A program made the translations under genes and the position numbers. A stretch of DNA of 64,000 nt from Luteitalea sp. TBR-22. Its GTDB lineage: Bacteria > Acidobacteriota > Vicinamibacteria > Vicinamibacterales > Vicinamibacteraceae. Below, one piece after another: positions 46,234 through 62,752 of this stretch. The notes beneath the pieces are model-generated. The model did not search any database and was not told where the DNA came from. It saw nothing but the letters and a program-made list of their open reading frames with translations. The stretch lies in the NCBI RefSeq assembly GCF_016865485.1, contig NZ_AP024452.1:2502501-2566500 (forward strand). The letters run 5' to 3'. The stretch's first letter is position 1. Each line of letters opens with the position of its first letter.

Positions 46234-46314
46234 GCGTCATGGCGCCATCCGAACGGCGGCGCGGCACGTCCTACTGAGCACGAGCGGCGTGGACGTGGGG
46301 TCCTCGTCGGGTTG

Positions 46315-46375
46315 CCTGAGTGCAGTCGAGGGACTCACCCTGAGGCGAAGCCGAAGGGGCAGGGTCGACGGGAGC
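46315..46375. repeat. Degenerate direct repeat in a promoter gap
   Basis: In the gap between the mannosyltransferase and TPR genes, CCTGAGTGCAGTCGAGGG (46316 on) is followed by CCTGAGGCGAAGCCGAAGGG (46340 on) and a third partial GGGTCGACGGG. The units share CCTGAG and a G(A/T)CGA(A/G)GGG end. Similar 'CTGAGCGAAGTCGAAGGG' elements are dispersed in many genomes. The remaining gap shows nothing else clear. Confidence 0.4.
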
Positions 46376-46382
46376 GTGTGCA

Positions 46383-46388
46383 TATAAT
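46383..46388 (+). promoter_or_regulatory. Possible -10 box TATAAT
   Basis: A perfect sigma-70 -10 hexamer lies inside the small palindrome GCATATAATGC, 67 bases upstream of the preferred start of the TPR-gluzincin gene. The -35 region is poor (CAGGGT at about 17 bases). If used, transcription would start near 46395 and the operon would begin here. Confidence 0.4.
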
Positions 46389-46449
46389 GCGGGCACAGGC
46401 GCAGATGTCGCGGTGGCACGCCACGGGTGCATCCCCAGCCCGCCAGGCG

Positions 46450-49029
46450 ATGCGGGCTTTGCTCCGCATCGCATTCGTCGTCGGTGGCCTCTGCCTGCCA
46501 GCGACCTTCACCCGCGCGCAGGGCGCGCCGCCGGCGTTCACCGTCCCGCGGATCATCACCCCCGGCGTCTCGCAACAGCCCGCCGCCAGCGAGCCGGCCC
46601 CTGAGGTCGTGCCCGCGTGGCGTCGTCCGCTGGTCGAGGGCAGGTTCGACGAGGCGCTCGCGCAGGCGGCTGACGTGCCGTGGGCCAGGGCCTACATCTC
46701 GGGCCGCGCGGCCGAGCGTCGTGGCGCGTACGACGAGGCCGAGCAGTCGTACCGGGTGGCGCTCGTCGAGCAGCCGACCGGCGAGCCGGCCGTTGCGCTC
46801 GCTGAACTGCTGACGCTGCTCGGCCGGCGCGACGAGGCCGTGCCGCTGTGGTCGGCCATCCTCCGAGCCGGTCAGGCGCAGCGGACCGGCACCGCGATCG
46901 GACGCGCGGCGCGCGCGGCGCAGGCGCTCACGCAGGTGCGACTGGCCAACTCGTACTTCCAGAGCGCCACCAACCTGTCGCCCGACGACGCGCAGATCCA
47001 CACGCGGTGGGGCGACCTGTTCCTCGAGAAGTTCAACGAGGCCGAGGCGCGCTCCTCGTACGAGACCGCCCTGAAGGCCGACAGCCGCTACGTACCCGCC
47101 ATGGTCGGGCTGGCCCGGTCGCTCGCCGACAGCAACCCGACGGCCGCCGAGGCCGCGGCACGTGAGGCGCTGGCCATCGATCCGTCCAACCCCGACGCCA
47201 TCGTGCTGCTGGCCGCCGAGGCGCTCGATGCCAGCAAGCGGCCCGAGGCTCGCGCCGGACTCGAGCAGGTGCTGGCGATCAACCCCCGGCACGTGGAGGC
47301 GCTGGCGCTGTCGGCGGCCATCGCGCAGATCGAGGACCGGCCAGCCGACGTCGCCGCCTTCACGCAACGGGCGATGGCGGTGCGCGAGCGCAACCCGGAC
47401 GTGCCCCGCATCATCGGCGAGCGTGTCGCTCGCCAGTACCGCTTCGAGGAGGCGGTGCGCTTCCTGCGCCAGGCCGTCGAGTTCGATCCGGAGAACAGTC
47501 GTGCGCAGGCCTCGCTCGGCCTGCACCTGCTGCGCACGGGTGACGAGGCCGGCGCGCGCGCGGCGCTCGATGCCGCCTTCACGAAGGACCCGTTCGACAC
47601 CGTCACGTACAACCTGCTGACGATGCTCGACGGGCTCGAGAAGTTCGTGTCCGTGCCGGCGCGCAACCTGGTGGTGAGGTTGCACGAGGCCGAAGCCCCC
47701 GTGCTGCAACCGTACCTGGTGCCGCTCGCCGAGCAGGCGCTGGCCGATCTGTCGAAGCGGTACGCGTTCACCCCGCAGGGGCCCATCCTGGTCGAGGTCT
47801 TCCCGCGCCACGACGACTTCGCCGTGCGCACCATGGGCCTGCCCGGCATGCTCGGGGCGCTCGGCGCGTGCTTCGGCAAGGTCGTGACGATGGACTCGCC
47901 CAAGGCGCGTCCGCCGGGCACGTTCAACTGGGCGGCGGTGCTGTGGCACGAACTGGCGCACGTGATCACGCTCCAGATGTCGGGCAACCGGTTGCCGCGC
48001 TGGCTCAGCGAGGGCATTTCGACCTTCGAGGAGACGCGGGCCCGCGCCGGGTGGGGCAGGGAGTCCGAGCTGCTGTTCGCGCAGGCGTATGCGACCGGAC
48101 GCCTGTTGCCGCTCAAGGACCTCAACAGCGGCTTTGCCAAGATCGAGACGATCAACCTCGCGTACCAGCAGGCGTCGGTGCTCGTGGCCTACCTGGTGGA
48201 GACGCACGGCGACGAGAAGCTGCAGGCGTTCGTGCGGAGTTTCGGCGAGGGACTCGACAACGAGGCCGCGCTGACGCGTGCCTACGGCCGCACCTGGGAG
48301 ACCCTGCAGCCCGAGTTCGACGCCTACGTGAAGCAGAAGTACGGCCCCTACGTGCCGGCCCTTACCGAGGTGGACGCCCCGCCCCCCGGCCGGACCGCCA
48401 CGGCCGCCGACTGGAAGGCGTTCGCCGATCAGCACGCCGGCAATTTCCGGCTGCAGATGGTGGCGGCCTCGCCGCTGCTGCGGCTTGGCGACCTGGCCGG
48501 CGCCCGTGTGGTGCTGGAGCGCGCGGCCGCACTGGTGCCCTTCGCCTCGGGGGACGCGAGCCCCTGGCGCCTGCTGGCCTCGACGGCGCTGAAGCAGGAA
48601 CAGGCTGCCGACGCCCGGCGCTTCATGGTCGAGGTGCTCGATCGCGACCACACCGCGGCGCAGACGCTGCGCCAGCTGGTGGCGCAAGCGCAAGCGCCGG
48701 AGGACGCGGCGTTGCGGCAGCGGGCCGCCGAGCGGGTCATCGAGATCGACCCCTTCGACGCGGCCGCGCACACGGCCCTCGGCGATCTGGCCCTGGCCCG
48801 CGGCGACGTCCCCACGGCGCTTCGCGAGCTCAAGGCGGCGGTCGATGCCGGACCGACCAATCCCGCCGAGGCCCTGACCTCGCTCGCCGAAGCGACGATG
48901 CGCTCGGGACGGAGCGACGAAGCCAAGCGTCACCTCATCAGGGCGCTCGAGACGACGCCGCGCCACGAGCGGGCGCAGGAGTTGCTGCTGCGCATCATCG
49001 ATGGCCCCGGGGGAGGAGACAGGCGATGA
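46450..49029 (+). CDS. TPR-containing gluzincin (peptidase MA-like)
   Basis: The product of about 859 residues has a signal peptide (IAFVVGGLCLPATFTRAQG). At least six TPR-like helix pairs follow (FDEALAQAADV, YDEAEQSYRVAL, FNEAEARSSYETALKAD, AEAAAREALAIDPSNP). A zinc metalloprotease domain of the peptidase MA type then has WHELAHVITLQMSGNRLPRWLSEG (H500, E501, H504 and E521). A C-terminal TPR set ends the protein. It is expected in the periplasm or outer surface. The start is uncertain: ATG 46387 or 46408 also work in frame, but the TATAAT box at 46383 would overlap the former. 46450 puts the signal peptide first. It is first in the MoxR-vWA cluster, overlapping the next gene by four bases. 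Confidence 0.85.
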   Translation: MRALLRIAFVVGGLCLPATFTRAQGAPPAFTVPRIITPGVSQQPAASEPAPEVVPAWRRPLVEGRFDEALAQAADVPWARAYISGRAAERRGAYDEAEQSYRVALVEQPTGEPAVALAELLTLLGRRDEAVPLWSAILRAGQAQRTGTAIGRAARAAQALTQVRLANSYFQSATNLSPDDAQIHTRWGDLFLEKFNEAEARSSYETALKADSRYVPAMVGLARSLADSNPTAAEAAAREALAIDPSNPDAIVLLAAEALDASKRPEARAGLEQVLAINPRHVEALALSAAIAQIEDRPADVAAFTQRAMAVRERNPDVPRIIGERVARQYRFEEAVRFLRQAVEFDPENSRAQASLGLHLLRTGDEAGARAALDAAFTKDPFDTVTYNLLTMLDGLEKFVSVPARNLVVRLHEAEAPVLQPYLVPLAEQALADLSKRYAFTPQGPILVEVFPRHDDFAVRTMGLPGMLGALGACFGKVVTMDSPKARPPGTFNWAAVLWHELAHVITLQMSGNRLPRWLSEGISTFEETRARAGWGRESELLFAQAYATGRLLPLKDLNSGFAKIETINLAYQQASVLVAYLVETHGDEKLQAFVRSFGEGLDNEAALTRAYGRTWETLQPEFDAYVKQKYGPYVPALTEVDAPPPGRTATAADWKAFADQHAGNFRLQMVAASPLLRLGDLAGARVVLERAAALVPFASGDASPWRLLASTALKQEQAADARRFMVEVLDRDHTAAQTLRQLVAQAQAPEDAALRQRAAERVIEIDPFDAAAHTALGDLALARGDVPTALRELKAAVDAGPTNPAEALTSLAEATMRSGRSDEAKRHLIRALETTPRHERAQELLLRIIDGPGGGDRR

Positions 49030-49865
49030 GCGGGCGCCTCGGGTGGACCGCCTGGTACCGGGAAGCCGGGCGGCGCGGGCGTGTACGGGGCGCGATCGGC
49101 GTGCTCGTCTGCGCGGCCGCGCTGCTGGGCCCCTCGCTGCTGCCCCGCGTGTGGGCGCAACTCGGGCAGGACAGCGACCCGCGGTTCGCCGGCCTGCGCT
49201 GGCAGTTCACCCGCATCCGCTACGACGCCCACAACGCCCAGCAGTTCCGGGCGCGGTACTGGAGCGATTCGTGGGCCATCGATGGGCCGGCCGCCGAGCA
49301 GAACCTGTCGCGCCGCCTGCGGTCGGTCACCAACATCGACGTCGGCGAGCCGGTGGTGCTGCGAATCGAGGACCCCGAGCTGTTCAACCATCCGTGGGTC
49401 TACTTCGTGGAACCCGGGACGCTCCGGCTGAAGGAATCCGAGGTGCCGATCCTTCGGGAGTTCCTCCTGCGCGGTGGCACCGCCGTGATGGACGACTTCC
49501 ACGGCGACATCGAGATGGAGAACGTGCTGCAGGAGATGAAGCGGGTGTTCCCGGAGCGGAAGGTGATCACCCTGCCGCCGTCACACCCGATCTTCTCGTG
49601 CTTCTACCAGCTCGACGGGTTCCCGCAGGTCCCGGGGCTCGGCTCGTTCTTCGCCGGGCGCACGTGGGAGAAGGGCGGCATCAATCCGGAACTGCGCGCC
49701 ATCGAGGACGACAACGGCCGCGCCATGGTGCTCCTGAACTGGAACACCGACATGGGCGACGGCTGGGAGTGGTCCAACGCCGAGCAGTACCCGGGGTACA
49801 TACAACACACCGCGCAGGCGTACCGGATGATGATCAACGAGGTCATCTACACGCTGACGCATTAG
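49026..49865 (+). CDS. DUF4159 family protein
   Basis: The 279-residue protein has a signal-anchor near residues 21-45 (IGVLVCAAALLGPSLLPRVWA) and a DUF4159 domain. The domain contains RFAGLRWQFTRIRYDAHNAQQ, then HPWVYFVEPG, LLRGGTAVMDDFHG and EKGGINPELRAIEDDN. DUF4159 has a GATase-like flavodoxin fold but no catalytic motif that can be pointed to. The gene is found beside MoxR/Bat genes in many bacteria. The start ATG overlaps the TPR gene stop (ATGA). A heptamer array follows the stop directly. Confidence 0.85.
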   Translation: MSGRLGWTAWYREAGRRGRVRGAIGVLVCAAALLGPSLLPRVWAQLGQDSDPRFAGLRWQFTRIRYDAHNAQQFRARYWSDSWAIDGPAAEQNLSRRLRSVTNIDVGEPVVLRIEDPELFNHPWVYFVEPGTLRLKESEVPILREFLLRGGTAVMDDFHGDIEMENVLQEMKRVFPERKVITLPPSHPIFSCFYQLDGFPQVPGLGSFFAGRTWEKGGINPELRAIEDDNGRAMVLLNWNTDMGDGWEWSNAEQYPGYIQHTAQAYRMMINEVIYTLTH

Positions 49866-49866
49866 G

Positions 49867-49986
49867 GGCTCCAGGCTCAGGGCTCATGGCTCAGAAAGCA
49901 CACAGCCTGGAAGAGTGCTCTCTGAGCGTCGAGCCCGTAGCCTTGACGCCACGACCGAGAACTCCGAGCCTTGAGCCCTGAGCCTT
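49867..49986. repeat. Heptanucleotide array behind DUF4159 as inverted repeat
   Basis: Four units, GGCTCCA, GGCTCAG, GGCTCAT, GGCTCAG (49867-49894), start two bases after the stop. The complementary type, GAGCCTT, GAGCCCT, GAGCCTT (49966-49986), lies 71 bases later. The centre contains TGCTCTCTGAGC (49916-49927), which recurs exactly at 60774-60785 in the next array. The array fills most of the 135-base gap before moxR. Confidence 0.75.
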
Positions 49987-50000
49987 CGCATGAGGATCGA

Positions 50001-51038
<1,038 letters not shown>

Positions 51039-51043
51039 TCGCC

Positions 51044-51952
51044 ATGGCCGTGTCCGCGCCGGGCCCATCGCGGTTCCTGTCGCCGGAGGTGGTCGCCGGC
51101 CTGGGCACGCTCGAGCTGAAGGCTCGCACGATTGTCGAAGGCCTGTTGCTCGGGCTGCATCGCAGCCCGTTCCGCGGGTCGAGCGTCGAGTTCGCCGAGT
51201 ACCGGCAGTACATGCCCGGCGACGACCCCGGCACGGTGGACTGGAAGGTCTACGCGCGCAGCGATCGCCATTACGTCAAGAAATTCGAGCACGACACGAA
51301 CGTCGAGGTGCAGTTGCTGGTCGACACCAGCGCGTCGATGGCGTATCGCAGCGGGACGGGCATGACCAAGCTGCAGTACGCGCAGTGCCTGACGGCAGCG
51401 TTGGCGTACCTGCTGACGGGGCAGCGCGACGCGGTGGGGCTCGGCCTCTACGACGACCGGCTGCGCGACTACGTGCCGTCGGCGGTCAAGGCGGGGCAGC
51501 TGACGCGACTGCTCGTGGCCCTCGATCATGCCCGCCCCGGCGCCACGTCGGACACGGCGGCGGCGCTCAAGCAGGTCACCGATCGGCTGCGGCGACGCGG
51601 GCTCATCGTCGTCTGCTCCGACCTGCTCGACGACCAGGCGCGCGTGGTGGAGGGCCTGCGGCTGCTCCGCGCGCGCGGCATGGAAGTGGTCGTCTTCCAC
51701 GTGCTCGACGAGGCCGAGCTGACGTTCCCCTTCGAGCAGGCCGGCACGTTCCGCGACGTCGAGACCGGTGAGGAGATCCTGACGCATGGCGCGTCGGCCC
51801 GGCAGGCCTACCTCGACGCCGTCGGGGCGTGGCGCGAGACCTACGTCACCGAACTGCGCGCGGCGGGCGTCGACTACCAGCTGGCGCGGACCAGCGCGCC
51901 GCTCGACCTGTCGCTGCTCGGCTGGCTGGGCGCCCGCGGGAGGACCCTCTAG
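51044..51952 (+). CDS. DUF58 domain protein
   Basis: The 302-residue protein has the DUF58 pattern: VEGLLLGLHRSPFRGSSVEFAEYRQYMPGDDPGTVDWKVYARSDR near the N-terminus, then VQLLVDTSASMAYRS (a vWA-like MIDAS motif DxSxS) and LIVVCSDLLDDQARVVEGL. DUF58 is a degenerate vWA-related domain, thought to form the substrate side of the MoxR system. No transmembrane segment is seen, so it is cytosolic. It is five bases from moxR and two bases from the next gene, so the genes should be co-transcribed. Confidence 0.93.
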   Translation: MAVSAPGPSRFLSPEVVAGLGTLELKARTIVEGLLLGLHRSPFRGSSVEFAEYRQYMPGDDPGTVDWKVYARSDRHYVKKFEHDTNVEVQLLVDTSASMAYRSGTGMTKLQYAQCLTAALAYLLTGQRDAVGLGLYDDRLRDYVPSAVKAGQLTRLLVALDHARPGATSDTAAALKQVTDRLRRRGLIVVCSDLLDDQARVVEGLRLLRARGMEVVVFHVLDEAELTFPFEQAGTFRDVETGEEILTHGASARQAYLDAVGAWRETYVTELRAAGVDYQLARTSAPLDLSLLGWLGARGRTL

Positions 51953-51954
51953 CG

Positions 51955-53838
51955 ATGGGCCTGCTCGCGCCGATCTTCCTCGCCGGGCTCGCCGCGATCG
52001 CCGTGCCGATCGTGCTGCACCTGTTCCGTCGCGAGGTTGCGCCGCCGGTGCCGTTCACGGCCGTGCGCTTCCTGCAGAAGCGCACGATCGAGCGGCAGGA
52101 GCGCCAGCGGATTCAGGATCCCTGGCTCTTGCTCCTGCGCGTGATCGCCCTTGCGTTGCTGGCGCTGGCGTTCGCGCGGCCGTACCTGCGCGGGGACGTC
52201 CCCGTCGTGCCGCCGGTCGTCATCGCGATGGACCTGTCCTACAGCATGGGGGCTCCCGGACGCCTCGACGCGGCGCGCCGGGCGGCGACCGCCGCGCTCG
52301 ACGAGTTGCCCGGCTCGACGCCCGTCGGCCTGGTGACCTTCGCCGACCGTGCGCAGGTGGTGGCCGAGCCGAGCACCGATCACGGTGCCGTACGCGCGCA
52401 GTTGGCGACGCTGCAGGCCGGTCCCGGCGCGACGCGATACGCCGGTCCCCTCGAGGCGGCCCGCGGGCTGCTCGACGGCCGCGCCGGGCGCATCGTCCTG
52501 GTCACCGACATGCAGGCGGGTGGCTGGTCGCGCGGCACGACGAGCCTGCCCGACAACGTCCGGCTCGACGTGCGGGCGGTCGGCGCGCGGGTCGACAACG
52601 TCCTGCTGCGCGACCTGGTGGTGTCGCGTGAGCAGGCGCGCGTCGTGGTGAGCAACGCCGGGCAGGTGCCCGCCGAGTTGACGGTGACCCTCGGCCGCCT
52701 CGACGGCGGCGGCGCCACCCAGCAGGTGTCGCTCGACGGCGGCGTGTCCCGGGAACTCGTGTTTCCGGGCCCGCACGCCCCGGGCGGCTTCGTGGCGCGC
52801 GTGCGACACGAGGGCGGCTTCCCGGCCGACGACCAGCGCTTCGCGGTGCTGCGCGACACGGCTCCGACTCGCGTGCACGTGCTGGTCGGCGACGAGGTGG
52901 ATCGCCCCCGCGCGCTCTTCGTGGACCGGGCCTTCGGGGCGCTCGGGGCGTCGGCGGCCACAGGCTTCACCGTGCAGGTGGCCACCGGCGCGGCGGCGTT
53001 CGGTCGGGACGCGGTGGCCCAGCGTGCCGGCGACCTCGTGATCTGGCTGTCGGCCACCGGCATCGACAGGCGCGCGGTGGCCTCGCTGGAACCCTTCGTT
53101 CGCGACGGCGGCCGCCTCGTCGTGGCCTGCGGTCCCGGCCTCGACCCACGCGTCGCCGACGTCGTGACGCGCCCGTTCGGCATCACGCTCGGCGGGCGCA
53201 ACGACCGACAGGGGCCGCCCGGCAGCCTGGTGGTCGAGGATCCCCGCCACCCGATGCTCGCCGCGCTCGGCGAGGCGCGCCAGGATCTGGCCCGGACCGA
53301 CGTGGCGGACGCGTGCGACATGGGGGTCGCCGCGCCGGCCAGCACCATCGTGCGCTTCTCGAATGGCCGACCCGCGATCGCCGAGGCGCGCGTCGGAGCC
53401 GGGCACCTGCTGGTGCTGGCGACCGACCTCGGTCGCCAGTGGAACAACCTGCCGGTGCAGGCCGCCTTCGTGCCGCTGATCGGCGAGCTGGCGCGACACC
53501 TGTTGGGGGATGGCGCGGGGCAGCGCGTCGCGCTGGCGACCATCGAGGATCCGCGGTACCAGCGCCCCGGCATCTGGCCCGTCGGCCCCCGCGGGCAGGA
53601 GGCGGCCGTCAACGTGGACGTCTCGGAGGCCGACCAGACCGCCATCGGCGTCGAGGAATTCGCACAGGCCATCGCGCGGCCGCCGGCCGACGAGGCGCGC
53701 GTCGCGCGTGTGGAAGCCGTACGGCTCGAGCGTGATCAGGGATGGTGGCGCTACGGGATCGCCTTGCTCGGGCTGACGCTCCTTGTCGAGAGCGTGCTCG
53801 CCCGCCGGCCCCGTGTCGCCACGGAGGGAGTGTCGTGA
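51955..53838 (+). CDS. BatA-like vWA membrane protein
   Basis: The 627-residue protein opens with two hydrophobic segments (FLAGLAAIAVPIVLHLFRR, the usual BatA/aerotolerance start; LLLLRVIALALLALAFARPYL). A vWA domain follows with the MIDAS motif VVIAMDLSYSMG, then a long beta-rich region with a GATase-like stretch. It ends with a C-terminal membrane helix (GIALLGLTLLVESVLA). It is expected to sit in the inner membrane with the vWA domain outside or inside depending on topology. It partners MoxR and DUF58. The ATG is at 51955 and the next gene overlaps its stop (GTGA). Confidence 0.92.
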   Translation: MGLLAPIFLAGLAAIAVPIVLHLFRREVAPPVPFTAVRFLQKRTIERQERQRIQDPWLLLLRVIALALLALAFARPYLRGDVPVVPPVVIAMDLSYSMGAPGRLDAARRAATAALDELPGSTPVGLVTFADRAQVVAEPSTDHGAVRAQLATLQAGPGATRYAGPLEAARGLLDGRAGRIVLVTDMQAGGWSRGTTSLPDNVRLDVRAVGARVDNVLLRDLVVSREQARVVVSNAGQVPAELTVTLGRLDGGGATQQVSLDGGVSRELVFPGPHAPGGFVARVRHEGGFPADDQRFAVLRDTAPTRVHVLVGDEVDRPRALFVDRAFGALGASAATGFTVQVATGAAAFGRDAVAQRAGDLVIWLSATGIDRRAVASLEPFVRDGGRLVVACGPGLDPRVADVVTRPFGITLGGRNDRQGPPGSLVVEDPRHPMLAALGEARQDLARTDVADACDMGVAAPASTIVRFSNGRPAIAEARVGAGHLLVLATDLGRQWNNLPVQAAFVPLIGELARHLLGDGAGQRVALATIEDPRYQRPGIWPVGPRGQEAAVNVDVSEADQTAIGVEEFAQAIARPPADEARVARVEAVRLERDQGWWRYGIALLGLTLLVESVLARRPRVATEGVS

Positions 53839-56800
53839 GTCCTGCACTGGATCCGGTCCGCCGATCGCTCGAGGGCCTTGCCGTGGCGTGGTGGCGCGTA
53901 CGCTGGCTGCGCGTGGTGGCGCGCACGACCGCCGTGGTCACCGGCGTGCTGCTGGCGTGGGCGTTGGTCGACCGTCTCCGGCCCCTCGGGCGCTGGCCGC
54001 TGCTGGCTTCCGGGGCGCTGGTGGCCTGCATCGTCGCCGCAGCGGCATGGTGGATGCGCCGACGCGCGCTGGCTCACCCGGCAGCCGAACGCATGGCGCG
54101 CCTGGTGGAGGAGCAGTGCCCCGAGCTCGAGGCGACGTTGCGGACGGCCCTCGACCCCGCCGTCGAGCGCAGCCCGCTCGGCGCGATCGTCCAGGCCGAT
54201 GCCGCTGACGCGCTCGCGCGCCTCGACGAGGCGCGGATCATCGACCCCGACGACCGGCGCCGGGCGATGCTCTGGGCCGGTGCGGCGGTGGCCTCGGTAC
54301 TCGTCGCGGCGGGACTGGCCGCGCCGACGGCGGTGCGCGCGGCGCGCACGGCGCGCTTCGTCGTGGCGCCGCCGTCGCTCACGCTGCGCGTCACCCCCGG
54401 TGCCCAGCGACTGGTGAAGGGGACGCCGCTGACGATCACGGCGGCGGTCGAGGGCGCGCCGCGCGATCTCGACGTCGCCGCGCCGACGCTGCAGGTGGAA
54501 GGCGAAGGGGTCCGGGCGGCCGGGGCCCTGACGCGTCGCCCCGACGGCGTGTACGAAGTGCGCATCCCGTCGGTCGATCGCGACTTCTCGTACCGGGTCG
54601 TCGCCGGCGGGCTGCGATCGGACCGCTATCGTGTCGAGGCGCTCGACCGCCCGCGCGTCGAGGGCATCGACCTCTCGTACGTGTATCCGTCGTTCTCCGG
54701 ACTGAAGCCGCGCACCGAGACCGACACCGGCGACATCTATGCGCCGGCCGGCACCACGGTCACCGTGCGGGTGCGCACGAGCAAGGCGTTGCGTGCCGCC
54801 GAGCTGCGCGCCACCGATGGCGAGGGCGCGCGCGCGCTGCCGCTGTCGCTGGTGGGCGACAAGGCCGGCGAGGTGGCGTTCACCGTCGCGCGTGATGGCG
54901 CGTATCGCATCGCCCTCACCGACATCGACGCGATCGCCAACGGCGACGAGACCGAGTACTTCGTGCGCGTGATGGACGACCGTCCGCCCGACGTCCGCAT
55001 CATCAGGCCGGCCGGCGACCGCGGGGCCACTCGCCTCGAGGAGGTCCGGCTCGAGGCGCGCGCCGAGGACGACTACGGCGTGCAGGCGCTCGAGCTCGTC
55101 TACGCGGTGCGCGGCGGGCCCGAGAAGGTGGTGCCGCTGGGCGGCGGCGGGGCGACGGCCGTGAGCGGCGCGCACACCATCTACCTCGAGGATCTCGACG
55201 TCAAGCCGGGCGACTTCGTGAGCTATTACGCCCGGGCGCGCGACATCGGCCGGGGCAAGCGATCGACCGAGGCGCGCAGCGACATCTTCTTCCTCGAGGT
55301 CAAGCCGACCGCCCAGGAGTTCACGGCGGCGCAGAGCAGCGCGATGGCCGGTGGTGGCGGGGGCGGCGGCGAGATGGACGACCTGGTGGCCGCGCAGAAG
55401 GACGTCGTGTCGGCGACGTGGAAGCTCGAACGCCGCGCGGCCGGCGGACGCTCGGCCACCGACATCAAGGCGGTCGGCCGGGCCCAGGCCGAGGTGCGCG
55501 AGAAGCTGCGGCAGCAGGCGGCCGGGGCCGGCGGCGCACCGTCTCCCTCGCCGCGCCGACGCCGGGGCGTCGACCCCGCCGAGGCGGAGGCGCCCCCGGT
55601 ACCGCTGCAGGCAGCCGGCGAGGCGATGGACCGCGCCGTGGCGCAGCTCGACAAGCTCGACACGCGCAGCGCGATCACGCACGAGATGACCGCCCTCAAC
55701 GAGCTACTGAAGGCCGAAGCGGAGATCCGGCGGCGGCAGCTGGCACGCCAGCAGGGCGGGCAGGGCAGCGGTCGGATGCGCACCGGCAACGAGGACCTCT
55801 CGGCCCTGTTCGATCAGGAGCTGATGCGCCAGCAGACCAACTACCAGCAGCAGAGCAGCGTCGAGTCGCGCCAGGAGGCCACCAAGGGCCAGTCGGCCCT
55901 CGATCGGATCCGCGAGCTGGCGCGCCGGCAGGACGACCTGGCGCGCGAGCAGCAGCAGCTGGCGCGCGAGCGCTCGCAGCTGACTGCGGAAGAAGCAAAG
56001 CGTCGCCTCGAGCGGCTGACGCGCGAGCAGCAGCGGCTGCAGCAGGAGGCGCAGCAGCTCGCCCAGCAGATGCAGAACGGGCAGCAGTCCCAGCAGTCCC
56101 AGCAGTCGGCCCAGGCGGGGCAGCAGGGCAGCGAGCAGCAGCAGAACGGCCAGCAGCAGGCCAGCCAGCAGGGGCAGCAGTCCGGACAGTCGCGCGGCCA
56201 GCAAGGGCAACAGGGCCAGCAGGCGTCCTCCGGCGGTGGGCAGTCGCAGGGGGCCTCCAACGCGTCGCGTGATCGCCTGCGCGAGGCGGCACAGCAGATG
56301 GGCGAAGCCACCTCGCAGCTGCAGCAGCAGTCGCCGGAACAGGCCGCCGCGCGCGGATCCCGATCGGCACAGGCCCTCCGCGACGCCGAGCGCGCGCTGC
56401 AGGCCGGCACTCCCGGCGAGCGGCAGCGCGCGGCCGGCGACGTGCAGCTCGAGGCGCGGCAGCTCGCGGAGGCCCAGCGCCAGCTGGCGCAGCAGGCGGG
56501 CGAGCTCGGCCAGCCCCAGAGCGGCGCGTCGGCCAACGAGCGGCGACGCCAGCTGGCCGGTGAGCAGGGGCGCCTCGCCGACCGTGTGGCTTCACTGGAG
56601 CGGCAGGTGCGCGAGCTCGCCCGCGGGGCGGACCCGGCACGTGACCCCTTGGGGCAGGCCTCGCGCGAACTGCAGCGCAGCAAGGCTGCCGAGCAGTTGC
56701 AGCAGGCCGCGCGGCAGTTGCGCGAGGGCGGCACGCCGCAGGGCACCGACCTGGCCCGGCAGCAGCGCGACGCTGCGCGCGTCCTCGACCGCGTGTCGGC

Positions 56801-57479
56801 GCTGGCCGGGCAGGCGAGCGGCCGCGGCACCGGCGAGACGCAGGCGCTCTCGGAGCGGCTGTCCGACGCACGGGATCTCCGCGATCGCTTGCGCTCGCTC
56901 GAGGATCGGATCGCTCAGCTGGCGCAGCAGGCGGAGCGCGAGGCCAACGGGGCCCCGACGCAGGGCGGCCAGCAGGAGCGTGCCGACGGCCAGCAGGGGC
57001 AGCGCGGAAGTTCCAGTGCCGCACAGCAAGGGCCGCGTGGCGATCAACAGGCGTCGCAGGCCGGCTCGCGCGGCTCGGCGCAGGGGCAGGGGAGAGGCCA
57101 GGCCGGCGACACGCTCGAGCAGTTGCGGCAACTGCAGCAGGAGTACGCCCGCGAGCTGCAGGACGCCGCCCGCATGGTGCAGGGGCGCGACGGCGGGCAG
57201 GACCGCGGTGGCCGGATGGCCACGCCCGAGGGCCACGAGTTCAGTCGCTCTGCCCCCGGCACCGAGGCCTTCAAGCAGGACTTCGCCCGGTGGGAGTCGT
57301 TGCGCAAGGGCGTCGCCAACGCCATGGACCGCTACGAGGCGTCGATCGCCCAGCGCCTCGCCGAGCGTGAGGCGGCCGAGCGGGTGCAGGCCCCCTTGCG
57401 CGACAAGGTCCCCGACCGCTACGCCGAGTCGGTCGTGCGCTATTACCAGTCGCTGAGCCGACGCCCGGAGTCCCGCTGA
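53835..57479 (+). CDS. Giant Q-rich coiled-coil membrane protein (DUF4175-like)
   Basis: The 1214-residue protein has two N-terminal membrane helices (VVARTTAVVTGVLLAWALV and LLASGALVACIVAAAAWWM) and a later one (LWAGAAVASVLVAAGLAAP). Several beta-domains of the DUF4175/Ig type follow (RLVKGTPLTITAAVEGAP, DYGVQALELVYAVRGG). A Gly/Asp linker and a long Gln/Ser/Ala/Arg-rich coiled coil take residues about 680-1150. That part is low-complexity with repeats such as three copies of a CAGCAGTC(C/G) codon block at 56082-56108. The C-terminal AESVVRYYQSLSR is a usual end in the family. DUF4175 proteins are found next to MoxR/Bat. Its start GTG overlaps the preceding stop. Confidence 0.88.
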   Translation: MSPALDPVRRSLEGLAVAWWRVRWLRVVARTTAVVTGVLLAWALVDRLRPLGRWPLLASGALVACIVAAAAWWMRRRALAHPAAERMARLVEEQCPELEATLRTALDPAVERSPLGAIVQADAADALARLDEARIIDPDDRRRAMLWAGAAVASVLVAAGLAAPTAVRAARTARFVVAPPSLTLRVTPGAQRLVKGTPLTITAAVEGAPRDLDVAAPTLQVEGEGVRAAGALTRRPDGVYEVRIPSVDRDFSYRVVAGGLRSDRYRVEALDRPRVEGIDLSYVYPSFSGLKPRTETDTGDIYAPAGTTVTVRVRTSKALRAAELRATDGEGARALPLSLVGDKAGEVAFTVARDGAYRIALTDIDAIANGDETEYFVRVMDDRPPDVRIIRPAGDRGATRLEEVRLEARAEDDYGVQALELVYAVRGGPEKVVPLGGGGATAVSGAHTIYLEDLDVKPGDFVSYYARARDIGRGKRSTEARSDIFFLEVKPTAQEFTAAQSSAMAGGGGGGGEMDDLVAAQKDVVSATWKLERRAAGGRSATDIKAVGRAQAEVREKLRQQAAGAGGAPSPSPRRRRGVDPAEAEAPPVPLQAAGEAMDRAVAQLDKLDTRSAITHEMTALNELLKAEAEIRRRQLARQQGGQGSGRMRTGNEDLSALFDQELMRQQTNYQQQSSVESRQEATKGQSALDRIRELARRQDDLAREQQQLARERSQLTAEEAKRRLERLTREQQRLQQEAQQLAQQMQNGQQSQQSQQSAQAGQQGSEQQQNGQQQASQQGQQSGQSRGQQGQQGQQASSGGGQSQGASNASRDRLREAAQQMGEATSQLQQQSPEQAAARGSRSAQALRDAERALQAGTPGERQRAAGDVQLEARQLAEAQRQLAQQAGELGQPQSGASANERRRQLAGEQGRLADRVASLERQVRELARGADPARDPLGQASRELQRSKAAEQLQQAARQLREGGTPQGTDLARQQRDAARVLDRVSALAGQASGRGTGETQALSERLSDARDLRDRLRSLEDRIAQLAQQAEREANGAPTQGGQQERADGQQGQRGSSSAAQQGPRGDQQASQAGSRGSAQGQGRGQAGDTLEQLRQLQQEYARELQDAARMVQGRDGGQDRGGRMATPEGHEFSRSAPGTEAFKQDFARWESLRKGVANAMDRYEASIAQRLAEREAAERVQAPLRDKVPDRYAESVVRYYQSLSRRPESR

Positions 57480-57481
57480 CG

Positions 57482-59704
57482 TTGGGTATCCGGTTCGCGC
57501 ATGCCCTGCCACCGTGGGCCTGGGGAGTCGGTGGCCTGGCGCTCGTGCTCTTCGCGGTCGCCGCGTACCGGCACGCGCGCACCGTCCTCTCGCCCGGGCG
57601 CTGGCTGCTGCTGGTGGCGCTGCGCACCCTGGCGCTCGCCGGCGTCGCGATCATCCTGATGCGCCCGGTGCGTCTCGAGCCGGCGCCCGCCGCCACCGGC
57701 CGTGCCGTCGCCGTGGTGGTCGACGACTCGCGTTCGATGCAGTTGCCCGACGCGCAGGGCACCGAGACGCGGTTGCAGCGAGCCCGCCAACTGGTCGCCA
57801 CCCGCCTGCGACCCCTGCTCCAGGGCGACTTCGACCTGCGCGTGTTCGCGGCCGCCGACGCGCTCCGCGAGATCCCCTCGGAAGACGCGCTCACCGGCGG
57901 CGGTCGCGGCTCCGATCTGGCCGGCGCGGCCTCGGCGATGGCCGAGCGCGCGGCGGCCGGCGAGTTCGTGGGGATGGTGCTCGTCAGTGACGGAGCGGCC
58001 TCCACGCCGGTGCCGCCCTCGCCGGGGACGTTGCCCGTCTTCACCATCGGCGTCGGCGCGGCGGGCAGCGTGATCGATCGCGAGGTCCGCGATGTGGCGG
58101 TGAGCGACGTCTCCGTGGTCGACTCGGTGGCCGAGGTGACGGCCAGCCTGGTGTCGCACGGTCCACGCGACACGGTGGACGTGCGCCTGCTCGAGAACGG
58201 CCGGCCGCTCGAGGTCCGGCAGGTGCGCCTGCCCGGGAACAGCCAACCCGTGCGCGAACGCTTCCGCGTGACGCCGCCGCGGACGGCCGCCACCGAGTAT
58301 CGCGTGGAGGTCGCCGAGGTGGCCGGCGAGCTCACCGCGGCCAACAACCGGGGGACGGTGTTCGTGCCAGCGCCTGGCGAGCCGCACGCCGTCCTGATCC
58401 TGGAGGGCGCTCCCGGTTTCGAGCACAACTTCCTGACGCGCGCGCTCGCCCGCGACACCGGCCTCGACGTCGACATCGTCGTGCGCAAGGGCCGCAAGGA
58501 GAACGGCGATCCGACGTTCTACGTGCAGGGCGCGGCGTCGCGCACCGCGGCGCTCGTGGACGGGTTCCCGAAGACCCGCGAGCAGTTGTTCAGGTACGCG
58601 GCCATCGTGCTCGGCAACGTCGAGGCCGACTTCCTCAGCCGCGCGCAGCTCGACATGCTGCTGTCGTTCGTCGAGCAGCGGGGCGGCGGTCTGGCGATCA
58701 TCGGCGCGCGTTCGTTCGGCGAGCGCGGCGTGATCGGCACCGAGCTCGGGCGCGTGCTCGGCGTCGAGGCGCGGGGCGCGGGCGCCATCAACGCGGCCGC
58801 GGCGGCCAGTTCGCGGCAGGGAACCCGGATCGATCTGACCTCGGCAGGGCAGCGGCACCCGGTGATGACCCTTACGCCGGCGCCCGGCAGCGATGCCTCC
58901 GTCTCGCCGTGGAGCAGCCTGCCGTCGCTGGCCGCGGCGGCGGCGGTCGGTCGCCCGCGGCCGGGGGCCGAGATTCTCGCGATGGTGTCGGGCCCGGCAG
59001 GGGAACCGCAGCCACTGGTCGCCGTGCAGCGCGCCGGGCGCGGTCGCACGCTCGTCTTCACCGGCGAGGGCGCGTGGCGATGGCGGATGGGACTCCCGGC
59101 CAGCAACCTCGCGTACGAGACCTTCTGGCGCCAGGCGTTGCGGTGGCTCGCCGTGCAGGCGCCGGCCCGCGTCGCCGTCGAGGTCGAGGCCCCCTCGATC
59201 GGTGCGCCCACGCCGATCGCCGTGCGCGTCGTCTCGCCGGAATTCGAGCCCATCGGTGATGCGAACGTGCAGGTGCGCGTCGAGGAGCCGGGGGGCGCGA
59301 CGCGGACGCTGCCGGCCGTGCTCGACGCCGGCGAGCCCGGCCTCTACCGCGCGACGCTGCTCACGCTGAATGCCGGCGTGCACCGGCTCGACGTCGAGGC
59401 GCAGCGTGCGGGCGCCTCGCTCGGCCGCAGCAGCGTGCAGGTGTTCGCCGGCGGGCAGGACCCCGAGTTCGTGGACCCTCGACGCAACGACGCCCTGCTG
59501 CAGCGGCTCGCCGAGTCGACCGGAGGGACCCGCCTCGACCGGAGCGATCTCGAGGGGCTTCCGGCGCTGATCCGCAAGGCAGCCGCCTCGCCCACCGCGC
59601 GTCTCGTCGAACGCGACCTCTGGCACAATGGCTGGAGTTTCCTGGGGCTCTGCATGGTGCTCGGCACCGAGTGGGCACTGCGCCGACGATGGGGGTTGCG
59701 ATGA
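57482..59704 (+). CDS. vWA/GATase-like membrane protein
   Basis: The 740-residue protein has two N-terminal hydrophobic segments (AWGVGGLALVLFAVAAYR, LLLVALRTLALAGVAIILM). A vWA-type domain carries the MIDAS-like VVVDDSRSMQLP. Beta-sandwich regions follow, then a GATase1-like domain around 340-430 (LILEGAPGFEHNFLTRAL, FVEQRGGGLAIIGARSFGERG). It ends with a membrane helix (FLGLCMVLGTEWALRR). The start is TTG at 57482, two bases after the previous stop; no ATG or GTG in frame would keep the first helix. It is coupled to the caspase-like gene by ATGA overlap. The function is not known. Confidence 0.88.
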   Translation: MGIRFAHALPPWAWGVGGLALVLFAVAAYRHARTVLSPGRWLLLVALRTLALAGVAIILMRPVRLEPAPAATGRAVAVVVDDSRSMQLPDAQGTETRLQRARQLVATRLRPLLQGDFDLRVFAAADALREIPSEDALTGGGRGSDLAGAASAMAERAAAGEFVGMVLVSDGAASTPVPPSPGTLPVFTIGVGAAGSVIDREVRDVAVSDVSVVDSVAEVTASLVSHGPRDTVDVRLLENGRPLEVRQVRLPGNSQPVRERFRVTPPRTAATEYRVEVAEVAGELTAANNRGTVFVPAPGEPHAVLILEGAPGFEHNFLTRALARDTGLDVDIVVRKGRKENGDPTFYVQGAASRTAALVDGFPKTREQLFRYAAIVLGNVEADFLSRAQLDMLLSFVEQRGGGLAIIGARSFGERGVIGTELGRVLGVEARGAGAINAAAAASSRQGTRIDLTSAGQRHPVMTLTPAPGSDASVSPWSSLPSLAAAAAVGRPRPGAEILAMVSGPAGEPQPLVAVQRAGRGRTLVFTGEGAWRWRMGLPASNLAYETFWRQALRWLAVQAPARVAVEVEAPSIGAPTPIAVRVVSPEFEPIGDANVQVRVEEPGGATRTLPAVLDAGEPGLYRATLLTLNAGVHRLDVEAQRAGASLGRSSVQVFAGGQDPEFVDPRRNDALLQRLAESTGGTRLDRSDLEGLPALIRKAAASPTARLVERDLWHNGWSFLGLCMVLGTEWALRRRWGLR

Positions 59705-60702
59705 GTCCGCGAGTGCTGATGACCGGGGTGGTCGGCGTTGGCCTGTGGCTGGCTGCGGCGACTGCGTACGGCCAGGGAGCGCCGCCGCGGCCGCCTCAGT
59801 CGCGTGTGCTCGTGGTTTCGGGTGCCGCCGGCAGCGAGGAGTACGCGGCGCGCCAGAAGCAGTGGCGCGAGACCCTGGTCACGCAGCTCACGACGCGATT
59901 GGGCGTGCCCGCCTCGCGCGTGACGGTGCTCGCCGAACAGGCCGGCGAGGGCCTGCAGGCCTCGACGGCGGTCAATCTCCGGCAGGCGCTGGCGACCCTG
60001 AAGGCCGCGCAGGGCGCCGACGACACGCTGCTCATCGTCCTGTTCGGCCACGGCACCTTCGACGGCGTCGACGCCAAGTTCAACCTCGTGGGCCCCGACC
60101 TGACCGCGCGCGACTGGCGCGACGCATTGCAGGGCATGCCAGGGCGCGTGGTGTTCGTGCAGACCGCCAGCGCGAGCTTTCCGTTCCTCGCGGCCCTGTC
60201 GGCGCCCAACCGCGTGGTCGTCACCGCCACCGATTCGCCGCAGCAGAAGTACGACACCGTGTTCGGGGAGCACTTCGTCGCGGCGTTCACGCCCGAGGCC
60301 GCAGAGTCCGACCTCGACAAGGACGGGCGCATCTCGATCTGGGAAGCGTTCGCCTACGCGGCCGACGCGTCCAAGCGCTACTACCAGCAGCGCGGTCAGC
60401 TGTCGGTCGAACGGGCACTGCTCGACGACACCGGCGACGGCGTCGGCCGCGACCTGGCCAAGGCGGGCGACGACGGCCTGCTGGCCAGCCGGGTGTTCCT
60501 CGATCCCGACCCGGCCACCGCCACGGGCGACCCCAGCGTCACGCTGCTCATCGGCCGACGCAACACGCTCGAGACCGAGCTCGACGAACTCCGACGCAAG
60601 AAGGGGTTCATGCCCGACGACGCCTACGCCCGCGAACTCGAGCGCATCATCGTCGACATCGCCCGCACGTCGCGCGACATCAGGCGTCGGCTCAAGAGCT
60701 AG
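59701..60702 (+). CDS. Secreted caspase-fold (peptidase C13/C14-like) protein lacking the catalytic cysteine
   Basis: The 333-residue protein has a signal peptide (VVGVGLWLAAATAYGQG) and a caspase-like Rossmann fold. The catalytic histidine is present in LIVLFGHGTFDG (H117), but the cysteine position reads VVFVQTASASFPFL (A156). There is no cysteine anywhere in the protein. The typical later blocks follow (RVVVTATDSPQQKYDTVFGEHF, DLDKDGRISIWEAFAYA, ERALLDDTGDGVG). Asp-rich segments resemble EF-hand calcium loops. It is the last gene of the MoxR-vWA operon. It is probably a non-enzymatic binding or regulatory protein, but this is inference. Confidence 0.8.
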   Translation: MSPRVLMTGVVGVGLWLAAATAYGQGAPPRPPQSRVLVVSGAAGSEEYAARQKQWRETLVTQLTTRLGVPASRVTVLAEQAGEGLQASTAVNLRQALATLKAAQGADDTLLIVLFGHGTFDGVDAKFNLVGPDLTARDWRDALQGMPGRVVFVQTASASFPFLAALSAPNRVVVTATDSPQQKYDTVFGEHFVAAFTPEAAESDLDKDGRISIWEAFAYAADASKRYYQQRGQLSVERALLDDTGDGVGRDLAKAGDDGLLASRVFLDPDPATATGDPSVTLLIGRRNTLETELDELRRKKGFMPDDAYARELERIIVDIARTSRDIRRRLKS

Positions 60703-60705
60703 AGC

Positions 60706-60851
60706 GAGGCTCGAGGCTCGAGCACCCCAGGCCAGCTCCGGCACGAGCGCCGCGGCTCCGAGTCCATTCAGAATGCTCTCTGAGCCTTGAGCCCTCAGCC
60801 TTCAGCCCTGAGTCCTCAGTCCTCAGTCCCGAGTCCCGAGCCCCGAGCCCG
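60706..60851. repeat. Ten-unit heptanucleotide array before the sulfatase gene
   Basis: Two GAGGCTC units and GAGCACC (60706-60726) start four bases after a stop. After 55 bases, ten consecutive units run from 60782 to 60851: GAGCCTT, GAGCCCT, CAGCCTT, CAGCCCT, GAGTCCT, CAGTCCT, CAGTCCC, GAGTCCC, GAGCCCC, GAGCCCG. Left and right parts are complementary (GAGGCTC vs GAGCCTT/C). TGCTCTCTGAGC (60774-60785) is shared with the array at 49916. This is the longest uninterrupted heptamer run here. Confidence 0.85.
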
Positions 60852-60871
60852 AAGTGATAGCCTCTCGCCCC

Positions 60872-62752
60872 ATGTGCACTCGAAGGCTCCTGATCCAGGC
60901 CCTCGTGCTCGTGTCCCTCCTCGCGACGGCGTCGATCGCGCTCGCTCAGGAGCAGCCCAACATCCTCTGGCTCTCGAGCGAGGACAACGGGCCGCAACTC
61001 GGCGCGTACGGCGACGCGTACGCCACCACGCCCGCGCTCGACCGGCTCGCCGCCCGCGGCGTGCGGTTCACGCGCGCCTGGGCCGCCGCGCCGGTGTGCG
61101 CGCCGTCACGCACCGCCATCATCACCGGCCTGTCTCCGCAGACCACCGGCGGCCACAACATGCGCAGCGAGGTGCCGCTCCCGGGCGACATGCCGATGTT
61201 TCCGGCACTGCTGCGCGCGGCGGGGTACTACACGTCCAACAACGTGAAGGAGGACTACAACCACCCGACGCCCGCCGGCACCTGGGACGACTCGTCGAAG
61301 ACCGCTCATTGGCGTGGCCGGCGACCTGGCCAGCCCTTCTTCGCCGTCTTCAACAGCGTCACGACGCACGAGAGCCAGATCCGGCGACGTCCGCACACCG
61401 CGGTTCACGACCCGGCGAAGGTGCGGGTGCCGCCCTATCACCCCGACACGCCAGAGGTCAGGCAGGACTGGGCCCAGTACTACGACAAGCTGACCGAGAT
61501 GGACCGCGAGGTCGAGGCGCGCCTTGCCGAACTCGAGGCCGACGGGCTGGCCGAGTCGACGATCGTCGTGTACTGGGGCGACCACGGCGTGGGACTGCCG
61601 CGAGGCAAGCGCTGGCTGTATCCAGCGGGCCTCGACGTGCCGCTCATCGTGCACGTCCCGCAGCGCTTCAGGCACCTGGCACCCGAGGGGTACAGCGCCG
61701 GCAAGGCGCTCGACCGACTGGTCAGCCTGATGGATCTCGGTCCGTCGATGCTCAGCGCGGCAGGAATCCGCCCGCCGGCCTGGATGCAGGGGCAGGCGTT
61801 CATGGGACCGTTCGCGGCGTCGCCGCGCGCGTGGCTGCAGGCCGGCCGGGATCGGATGGACGAACGCGTCGACATGTCGCGCGCCATCACCGACGGCCGG
61901 TATCTCTACATCCGCAACTTCCGTCCCGATCGCAGGCAGGGCGAGTACCTCGCCTACATGTTCGAGACGCCGACGACACAGGTGTGGAAGGCCAGGCACG
62001 ACGCCGGGCAGCTCACGCCGGCACAGGATTCGTTCTGGCGCGAGAAGGCGCCGGAGGAACTCTACGACCTCCGTGCCGATCCGGATGCCGTCCGCAACCT
62101 CGCCGGCGACCCCGCCCACCGGGCGGCGCTGGAGCGATGCCGCGCCGCACTCCGCCGTCACCTGATCGCCTCGCGTGACCTCGGCCTGCTGCCCGAGGGC
62201 GACATGCACCGCCGCCGGGGCACGCGCACGGCGTTCGACCTGGGACGCGATGGGACGGCGTTCCCGGTGGAACGCGTTCTCGAGCACGCCTGGATGGCGT
62301 CGATGCGCGATGCCGGGGCCGCCGAGACGCTGCGCCGCGGGCTGGGCGACCGGGATGCCGCGGTGCGGTACTGGAGTGCCACCGGCCTGCGCCTGCTCGG
62401 CGCGTCGGCTGTGGCGGCGCACGAGGCCGCGCTGCTGGCACTGCTGACCGACGACGTGGCACCGCGCGTCGCGGCGGCAGACGCCCTGGTGCGCCACGGT
62501 TCGCCGCAGGCCCGCGCGCGGGCGTTCGAATCGCTGTCGGCGCTGCTGGACTACCGTGCCGTGGGACACCACGCCACCATGCTGGCGCTCGACACGCTGG
62601 TGGCCCTCGGCGACCTCGCAGCACCGATCCGCCTCGCTGCGGCCGCCGCGCCCGCGCCGGGCAAGGACGTGCCGGCGCGCGAACAGGAGTACATCGCGCG
62701 CCTGGCCCTGCGGTTGCGCGAGCAGGCTGCCGCGGTCACGCCGATGCGCTGA
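60872..62752 (+). CDS. Secreted sulfatase with C-terminal HEAT-like repeats
   Basis: This is an alkaline-phosphatase-superfamily sulfatase. The 626-residue product has a signal peptide (LLIQALVLVSLLATASIALAQ) and the metal site PNILWLSSEDNGPQLGAYG. The formylglycine motif CAPSRTAIITG contains Cys76 (C-x-P-S-R), so it needs oxidation by a formylglycine-generating enzyme, not seen in this window. It continues with FVHVP-type core segments and WGDHGVGLPRGKRWLYPAGL. From about residue 470 the sequence becomes HEAT-like alpha repeats. Substrate (polysaccharide or other sulfate ester) is unknown. ATG 60872 is preferred over GTG 60854 because the signal peptide fits. Confidence 0.92.
   Translation: MCTRRLLIQALVLVSLLATASIALAQEQPNILWLSSEDNGPQLGAYGDAYATTPALDRLAARGVRFTRAWAAAPVCAPSRTAIITGLSPQTTGGHNMRSEVPLPGDMPMFPALLRAAGYYTSNNVKEDYNHPTPAGTWDDSSKTAHWRGRRPGQPFFAVFNSVTTHESQIRRRPHTAVHDPAKVRVPPYHPDTPEVRQDWAQYYDKLTEMDREVEARLAELEADGLAESTIVVYWGDHGVGLPRGKRWLYPAGLDVPLIVHVPQRFRHLAPEGYSAGKALDRLVSLMDLGPSMLSAAGIRPPAWMQGQAFMGPFAASPRAWLQAGRDRMDERVDMSRAITDGRYLYIRNFRPDRRQGEYLAYMFETPTTQVWKARHDAGQLTPAQDSFWREKAPEELYDLRADPDAVRNLAGDPAHRAALERCRAALRRHLIASRDLGLLPEGDMHRRRGTRTAFDLGRDGTAFPVERVLEHAWMASMRDAGAAETLRRGLGDRDAAVRYWSATGLRLLGASAVAAHEAALLALLTDDVAPRVAAADALVRHGSPQARARAFESLSALLDYRAVGHHATMLALDTLVALGDLAAPIRLAAAAAPAPGKDVPAREQEYIARLALRLREQAAAVTPMR

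Follow-up and report, generated by a model that had tools for sequence, protein, structure and literature searches.

The DNA analysed here, a stretch of 64,000 nucleotides from Luteitalea sp. TBR-22 (contig NZ_AP024452.1, positions 2,502,501 to 2,566,500; hereafter the window), encodes at 59701..60702 on the forward strand a protein, P0001, which according to sequence profiles and a predicted structure has the caspase-type (clan CD) fold and the catalytic His of this clan, but carries Ser at the position of the catalytic Cys, and almost all members of its family are likewise without this Cys. We consider it rather probable that P0001 is exported and serves a MoxR/DUF58/VWA envelope complex as a pseudopeptidase adaptor, i.e. 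a binder that would not cut and that would be docked on the membrane protein encoded directly upstream (the partner). This proposal, which would entail export, calcium binding, docking on the partner, a lack of proteolysis and an adaptor role, starts from four computed properties, namely the predicted fold, the state of the Cys column, the conservation across the family and the gene linkage.

The P0001 gene and its predicted fold

Translation of the open reading frame (ORF), which runs from ATG to TAG, confirmed what the first-pass annotation of this DNA had read from the letters, namely a protein of 333 residues with zero Cys, in which the histidine block LFGHGTFDG is present and the expected Cys site reads QTASAS; the segments DLDKDGRIS and LDDTGDGVG were found as well. 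In the ATGA at 59701-59704, the start codon overlaps with the stop of the gene before it, and there is a single full match to P0001 across the source genome (6.47 Mb, one contig). As Cys makes up 0.33% of the residues in the nine window genes counted, the chance of a Cys-free protein of 333 residues in this genome region is ∼0.33, and thus the total absence of Cys is weak evidence and was rejected as a stand-alone argument. Pairwise NG86 estimates of the nonsynonymous (dN) and synonymous (dS) rates against the relatives L003 (dN 0.11, dS 0.62, dN/dS ∼0.17) and L004 (dN 0.19, dS 0.67, dN/dS ∼0.28) indicated purifying selection on P0001.

A profile built from 69 relatives of P0001 (profile A2) matched Arabidopsis metacaspase-4 with an E-value of 2.7e-8 and gave weaker matches to further metacaspases. 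When the AlphaFold2 model of P0001 (13 sequences; predicted local distance difference test, pLDDT, 77.6; predicted template modelling score, pTM, 0.77) was submitted to Foldseek, metacaspases ranked first (E 1.1e-6), and by VIA-align the model superposed on metacaspase-4 (6w8r) with a Z of 18.5 and 3.3 Å over 212 residues and on legumains with Z about 16-18, the structural matches spanning residues about 30-274 and the fold shared with metacaspases residues 32-276. Since sequence profile and predicted structure concur, we assign to P0001 the caspase-type fold that the first-pass annotation had postulated; of the attributes of clan CD, this predicted fold and the His of the GHG motif are present, but the catalytic Cys is not. 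Single-sequence searches with P0001 returned only ACP_syn_III_C from Pfam (E 0.068), only caspase_w_EACC1 from NCBIfam (E 0.016) and, from the Protein Data Bank (PDB), a nopaline-binding protein as the best match (E 0.034) with metacaspase-4 at E 0.49. Peptidase_C14 (PF00656) did not match P0001 at E 1 or better and matched one of the 69 members (E 0.0068); Peptidase_C13 (PF01650) left P0001 itself unmatched and matched 29 of the 69 at E up to 0.1, the best value being 1.8e-7.

The catalytic-Cys column across the family

In the alignment with profile A2, Cys139 of metacaspase-4 falls on Ser157 of P0001 (AGC, 60169..60171) and the Ser of the C-x-S-G motif on Ser159 (60175..60177). Cys-bearing bacterial weak relatives carry their Cys in column 157 too, so that the loss of the catalytic Cys claimed earlier could be placed at this residue. 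For the family-wide comparison 240 loci were scanned, the family being taken as the 155 distinct members that scored at least 143 bits and the distant relatives as the 25 rows under 75 bits, the range from 72 to 143 bits being empty. The distant rows are a selection, drawn from 20 regions with weak profile matches and from six regions of a further search. Nine of the 25 could not be placed at column 157, and three of these nine are fragments of family members (L186 and two pieces of L116).

Column 157 holds Ser in 109 of the 155 members, Ala in 10, Glu in nine, Gly in eight, Pro in seven, and Thr, Asn and Cys in four each, which leaves 42 members with neither Ser nor Cys; among the 16 alignable distant relatives it holds Cys in 15 and Arg in one. 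His117 of LFGHG (60049..60051), the catalytic His position, is kept in 154 members and Ser159 in 149. Unlike the absence of Cys from a single protein, this pattern of a retained His and a missing Cys157 is not accounted for by chance. As 151 of the 155 members are without Cys157, its absence from P0001 is not a local mutation, and as the column accepts Glu, Gly, Ala and Pro, it looks unlike that of a nucleophile. Nearby, Cys occurs at column 155 in 18 members and at column 158 in 10, and only 31 have any Cys at columns 155-159.

The four members with Cys157 (L147, L148, L151 and L152) all belong to Planctomycetota, as does L014, a record from Pirellulaceae; L152 has neither the partner nor DUF4175 upstream. 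In a tree of 36 rows, L147, L148 and L151 were nested inside the family, with at least three changes of Cys state, and a single clade for the 28 Cys-less rows was rejected (approximately unbiased test, p-AU 9.2e-6). A second, larger tree again placed the three inside the family, with at least four changes, and in both trees long outgroup rows fell within the family. We also asked whether the Ser codons preserve traces of an ancestral Cys. The codons AGC/AGT account for 73 of the 107 codons read at column 157 and for 1317 of 3870 Ser codons overall, but as they are enriched at Ser159 as well (126 of 147), they are not diagnostic.

Distribution among genomes

With P0001 as the query, matches at E 1e-5 or better were obtained in 113 of 396 genomes of Acidobacteriota and in 32 of 294 genomes of Planctomycetota. 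Profile search revealed a full family match in 71 of 257 Acidobacteriota genomes, whole copies scoring about 300-414 bits; below these, two genomes had split copies and one copy was partial (69.7 bits), after which scores dropped to 48 bits or less, a gap that makes the family boundary sharp. As the genome scans scored the best candidates only (up to eight per genome for the family and four for the partner), unmatched genomes may be misses. A plasmid search yielded one record, from Gemmatirosa kalamazoonensis (Gemmatimonadota; 39% identity), the copy on which is also without Cys157, and the family thus spans Acidobacteriota, Planctomycetota and Gemmatimonadota. The Gemmatirosa kalamazoonensis pseudopeptidase, located on a 1.1 Mb replicon, reads in two frames. 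At L186 (genome G156), the readable part of a family member is confined to its C-terminal half (71.5 bits); as the locus holds unknown bases, this may be a truncated copy and not a genuine half gene.

Loops and C-terminal hairpin

At motif level, loop 204-215 of P0001 (D204-x-D206-x-D208-G-R-I-S212-x-x-E215; 60310..60345) has ligands at EF-hand positions 1, 3, 5, 9 and 12, and these are conserved among the 155 members (D204 in 151, D/N206 in 149, D/N208 in 144, S212 in 137 and E215 in 150). Of the calcium loops suggested by the first-pass annotation, DLDKDGRIS therefore stands as an EF-hand-type ligand pattern, but it is not special to the Cys-less form, since all 14 of the 25 weak relatives that could be aligned at this loop carry the first Asp and the final Glu. 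As Cys-bearing distant relatives possess it too, the loop was probably inherited. Pfam EF-hand_5 matches seven of the 69 members of profile A2 (best E 0.0049). In L117 and L121 (G253 and G041, one genus), an insert of ∼55-63 residues immediately precedes the EF-hand-like loop within one open frame.

Two elements are family-specific, namely the near-invariant TEHALLDDNGDG loop, which includes E237 and D243, and a helical hairpin at the C-terminus. In P0001 this signature loop reads VERALLDDTGDGVG (60406..60447; consensus TEHALLDDNGDGxG), E237 being present in 153 and D243 in 152 of the 155 members, and column 237 was unalignable in 23 of the 25 distant rows. The hairpin corresponds to a two-helix extension at residues 278-332 (60532..60696), with model helices at 278-299 and 306-332, and lies outside the caspase fold.

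Probable export and the upstream partner

Residues 1-24 of P0001 (59701..59772) resemble a signal peptide, with a hydrophobic 11-mer of mean Kyte-Doolittle (KD) value 2.2 and a cleavage site placed by eye, and a signal-like hydrophobic stretch is found in 137 of 149 family members, with 51.3 expected on shuffling. Judged from this N-terminus, P0001 is probably exported, in line with the secretion predicted in the first-pass annotation.

The partner gene (57482..59704, same strand), whose stop codon is the one overlapped by the P0001 start, encodes a membrane protein in which one part is VWA-like (D81-x-S83-x-S85) and another GATase1-like. Across 10 sequences the D-x-S-x-S motif hardly varies, which speaks for the vWA protein that had been anticipated in the operon, but the Pfam matches of the partner are sub-threshold (VWA_2 E 0.1; GATase1_like 21.8 bits, cut-off 27). 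Helices 11-28, 38-60 and 717-736 of its model resemble membrane segments by eye. In Foldseek, this model gave many multi-domain matches of low TM-score, the best being a eukaryotic oligosaccharyltransferase chain (TMq 0.22), with GH42 enzymes also among the top matches, a result taken as a hint only. As these matches presumably fit a GATase1/GIFT-type domain, the partner is possibly a bacterial VWA-like membrane protein with a GIFT-type GATase-like domain.

The partner gene immediately precedes, on the same strand, 137 of the 149 family members assessable in this respect, five of 154 loci being too short upstream. Of the 12 loci not counted, two (L011 and L081) carry the partner upstream in the comparison of gene neighbourhoods, and L053 shows one only at -6889. 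Furthermore, among the 257 Acidobacteriota genomes, 71 have both genes, two the partner only (G156, with the partial pseudopeptidase, and G219, with a weak partner match) and none the full pseudopeptidase only. The partner match of G156 is situated ∼0.8 Mb away from L186. Five genomes (G107, G167, G191, G206 and G213) each have a second partner gene, with no second pseudopeptidase among the matches listed.

Gene neighbourhood

The partner and P0001 terminate a series of eight genes on the forward strand. It begins with a tetratricopeptide repeat (TPR) protein with a Peptidase_MA_2 domain (46312..49029; Pfam), followed by a DUF4159 protein (49026..49865; PF13709, E 1e-40), a MoxR AAA+ ATPase (49971..51038; AAA_3, E 2.7e-62), a DUF58 protein (51044..51952; PF01882, E 9.6e-51), a BatA-type double-anchor VWA protein (51949..53838; Pfam BatA and VWA_2, NCBIfam two_anch) and a DUF4175 protein (53742..57479; PF13779, E 1.5e-10), the true start of which is probably further in. 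The window MoxR scores 36 bits against bpMoxR (PF20030; cut-off 27), although AAA_3 fits far better. MoxR was found on the same strand in 57 of the 63 loci having 5 kb either side, nearly all of them from Acidobacteriota. The order of the other genes varies among loci, and the pair of partner and pseudopeptidase is mostly kept. In Gemmatirosa kalamazoonensis all eight genes were matched together (L243:6437-18907), in the order pair, TPR, DUF4159, MoxR, DUF58, BatA and DUF4175, and the 20 Planctomycetota regions comprised the partner in 19 cases and DUF4175 in 14.

A PADLOC search for defence systems gave no match among five proteins, and a defence-system assignment was not adopted. Downstream of P0001 and on the same strand, a sulfatase gene (60854-62752) comes next. 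The intergenic segments 60765-60855 and 49865-49980 have short units in common (tgctctctgagc and gagccttgagccct) and resemble related repeated elements.

Proposed role and alternative explanations

We propose that the family preserved His, fold and EF-hand-like loop, with nearly all of its members lacking the Cys nucleophile, and that its function has most likely shifted from cutting to binding. P0001 would sit at the outer face of the cytoplasmic membrane, dock onto the VWA/GATase-like protein encoded just upstream and bind a peptide or protein segment without cleavage. It would in this way act as adaptor in the MoxR/DUF58/BatA complex, which it would adjoin in most of Acidobacteriota, and calcium would possibly stabilize its loops. 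MoxR/DUF58/VWA operons are poorly understood, and a constant, probably exported pseudopeptidase offers a handle on their extracytoplasmic function.

Several observations weigh against this adaptor role. Retention of His117 in 154 of 155 members exceeds what would be expected of a purely structural residue, and Ser is the commonest letter of the Cys column. L147, L148 and L151 have Cys157, restored or retained, with the partner and DUF4175 upstream; the first-pass annotation had held that homologues in the same context with an intact Cys and protease activity would imply a local mutation, and while homologues with the Cys do exist in Planctomycetota, that implication falls with the 151 members lacking it. 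These natural Cys-bearing members adjoining the same partner gene allow a direct comparison. In the model, residues 119-132, which follow His117, have a pLDDT <50, and no Pfam EF-hand model matched P0001 at E 1 or better. MoxR and DUF58 were found in none of the 20 Planctomycetota regions within about 7 kb. At L040, L041 and L043-L046 (one family group of the window's taxonomic order) and at L029, the gene lies behind the TPR gene and the partner is not directly upstream. Binding of the partner is a prediction from gene order.

Because His is so strictly retained and Ser preferred in the Cys column, the main rival is a Ser-His enzyme, a hydrolase or transferase whose nucleophile was exchanged and whose active dyad would consist of Ser157 (or Ser159) and His117. 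Ser157 is present in 109 of 155 members, and QTASAS is shared by P0001 with the relatives nearest to it (L003, L004, L015 and L016). We nevertheless regard such an enzyme as unlikely, since Ala, Glu, Gly, Pro, Thr or Asn stands in its place in 42 members, the relatives L005 (Gly) and L021 (Ala), which belong to the window's taxonomic order, lack Ser157 yet keep the His, and Ser159 looks structural, being found also in 13 of the 16 alignable distant relatives. The wider version of this idea, a family-wide exchange of the nucleophile that would have produced a calcium-gated extracytoplasmic Ser-His caspase-fold enzyme working with the MoxR/VWA machine, with at least three changes of Cys state, is in our judgement unlikely. 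The family could alternatively be one of still-active cysteine peptidases in which some lineages had their Cys shifted by one or two positions, the window copy being a dead branch. Cys155, Cys158 and Cys157 (18, 10 and four members) might be cited in favour, but with just 31 of 155 having Cys anywhere in columns 155-159, and P0001 under purifying selection relative to L003 and L004, this appears very improbable. A decaying gene or local mutation, for which nothing speaks besides the missing Cys, is contradicted by the family-wide conservation: Cys157 is absent from 151 of 155 members and from the Gemmatimonadota copy, and with dN/dS values of ∼0.17 and ∼0.28 this explanation is hardly credible.

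P0001 could also act on a true caspase of its own cell, as a decoy or a dominant-negative regulator binding the enzyme or its substrates. The source genome has two Peptidase_C14 matches over the Pfam cut-off, one of which (L242, C1:1211052-1211753) possesses GHG and DACHSG and, by eye, a signal-like start and TPR-like repeats; at the other (L241), the one frame scanned gave no Pfam family. Inactive peptidase domains in MoxR-vWA systems have, in the accessible text of PMC7159879, been proposed to be dominant-negative or peptide-binding. Both C14 matches are, however, located elsewhere in the genome, and the constant genomic partner of P0001 is the VWA/GATase-like protein and no caspase, which makes a decoy distinctly improbable.

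Comparison with known systems

In the literature search no title or abstract opening described the P0001 family, subscription journals being thinly covered, nor did the available text of the three papers cited below. P0001 shares with metacaspases and orthocaspases (Peptidase_C14; closest solved structure Arabidopsis metacaspase-4, 6w8r/6w8s) the fold, the GHG His and the position of the C-x-S-G motif, but differs by Ser in place of Cys, the signature loop, the C-terminal hairpin and the lack of a PF00656 match. The legumain family (Peptidase_C13, PF01650) resembles it structurally (Z about 16-18) and by the PF01650 matches of its relatives, whereas the P0001 family is without the catalytic Cys and P0001 is unmatched by PF01650. 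Substitutions among prokaryotic caspase homologues have been surveyed before; in Planctomycetes, according to the accessible part of that survey (PMC3501461), 64% of the homologues retain the dyad. The pseudo-orthocaspases of cyanobacteria and Alphaproteobacteria, as described in the available text of PMC6426788, the main text of which does not contain the words Acidobacteria and Planctomycetes, are likewise caspase-fold relatives without the His-Cys dyad; there, however, Tyr-Ser replaces it, whereas the P0001 family retains the His. Inactive caspase domains in a MoxR-vWA setting are also known from the ternary conflict systems, with a peptide-binding or dominant-negative role proposed (PMC7159879), but in the portion of that work available the caspase is fused to vWA or VMAP, while P0001 is stand-alone, has a signal-like start and is accompanied by a constant partner gene. 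The P0001 family, in which a caspase fold is conserved across phyla without the nucleophile yet with the His, is a new variant of caspase-fold pseudopeptidases.

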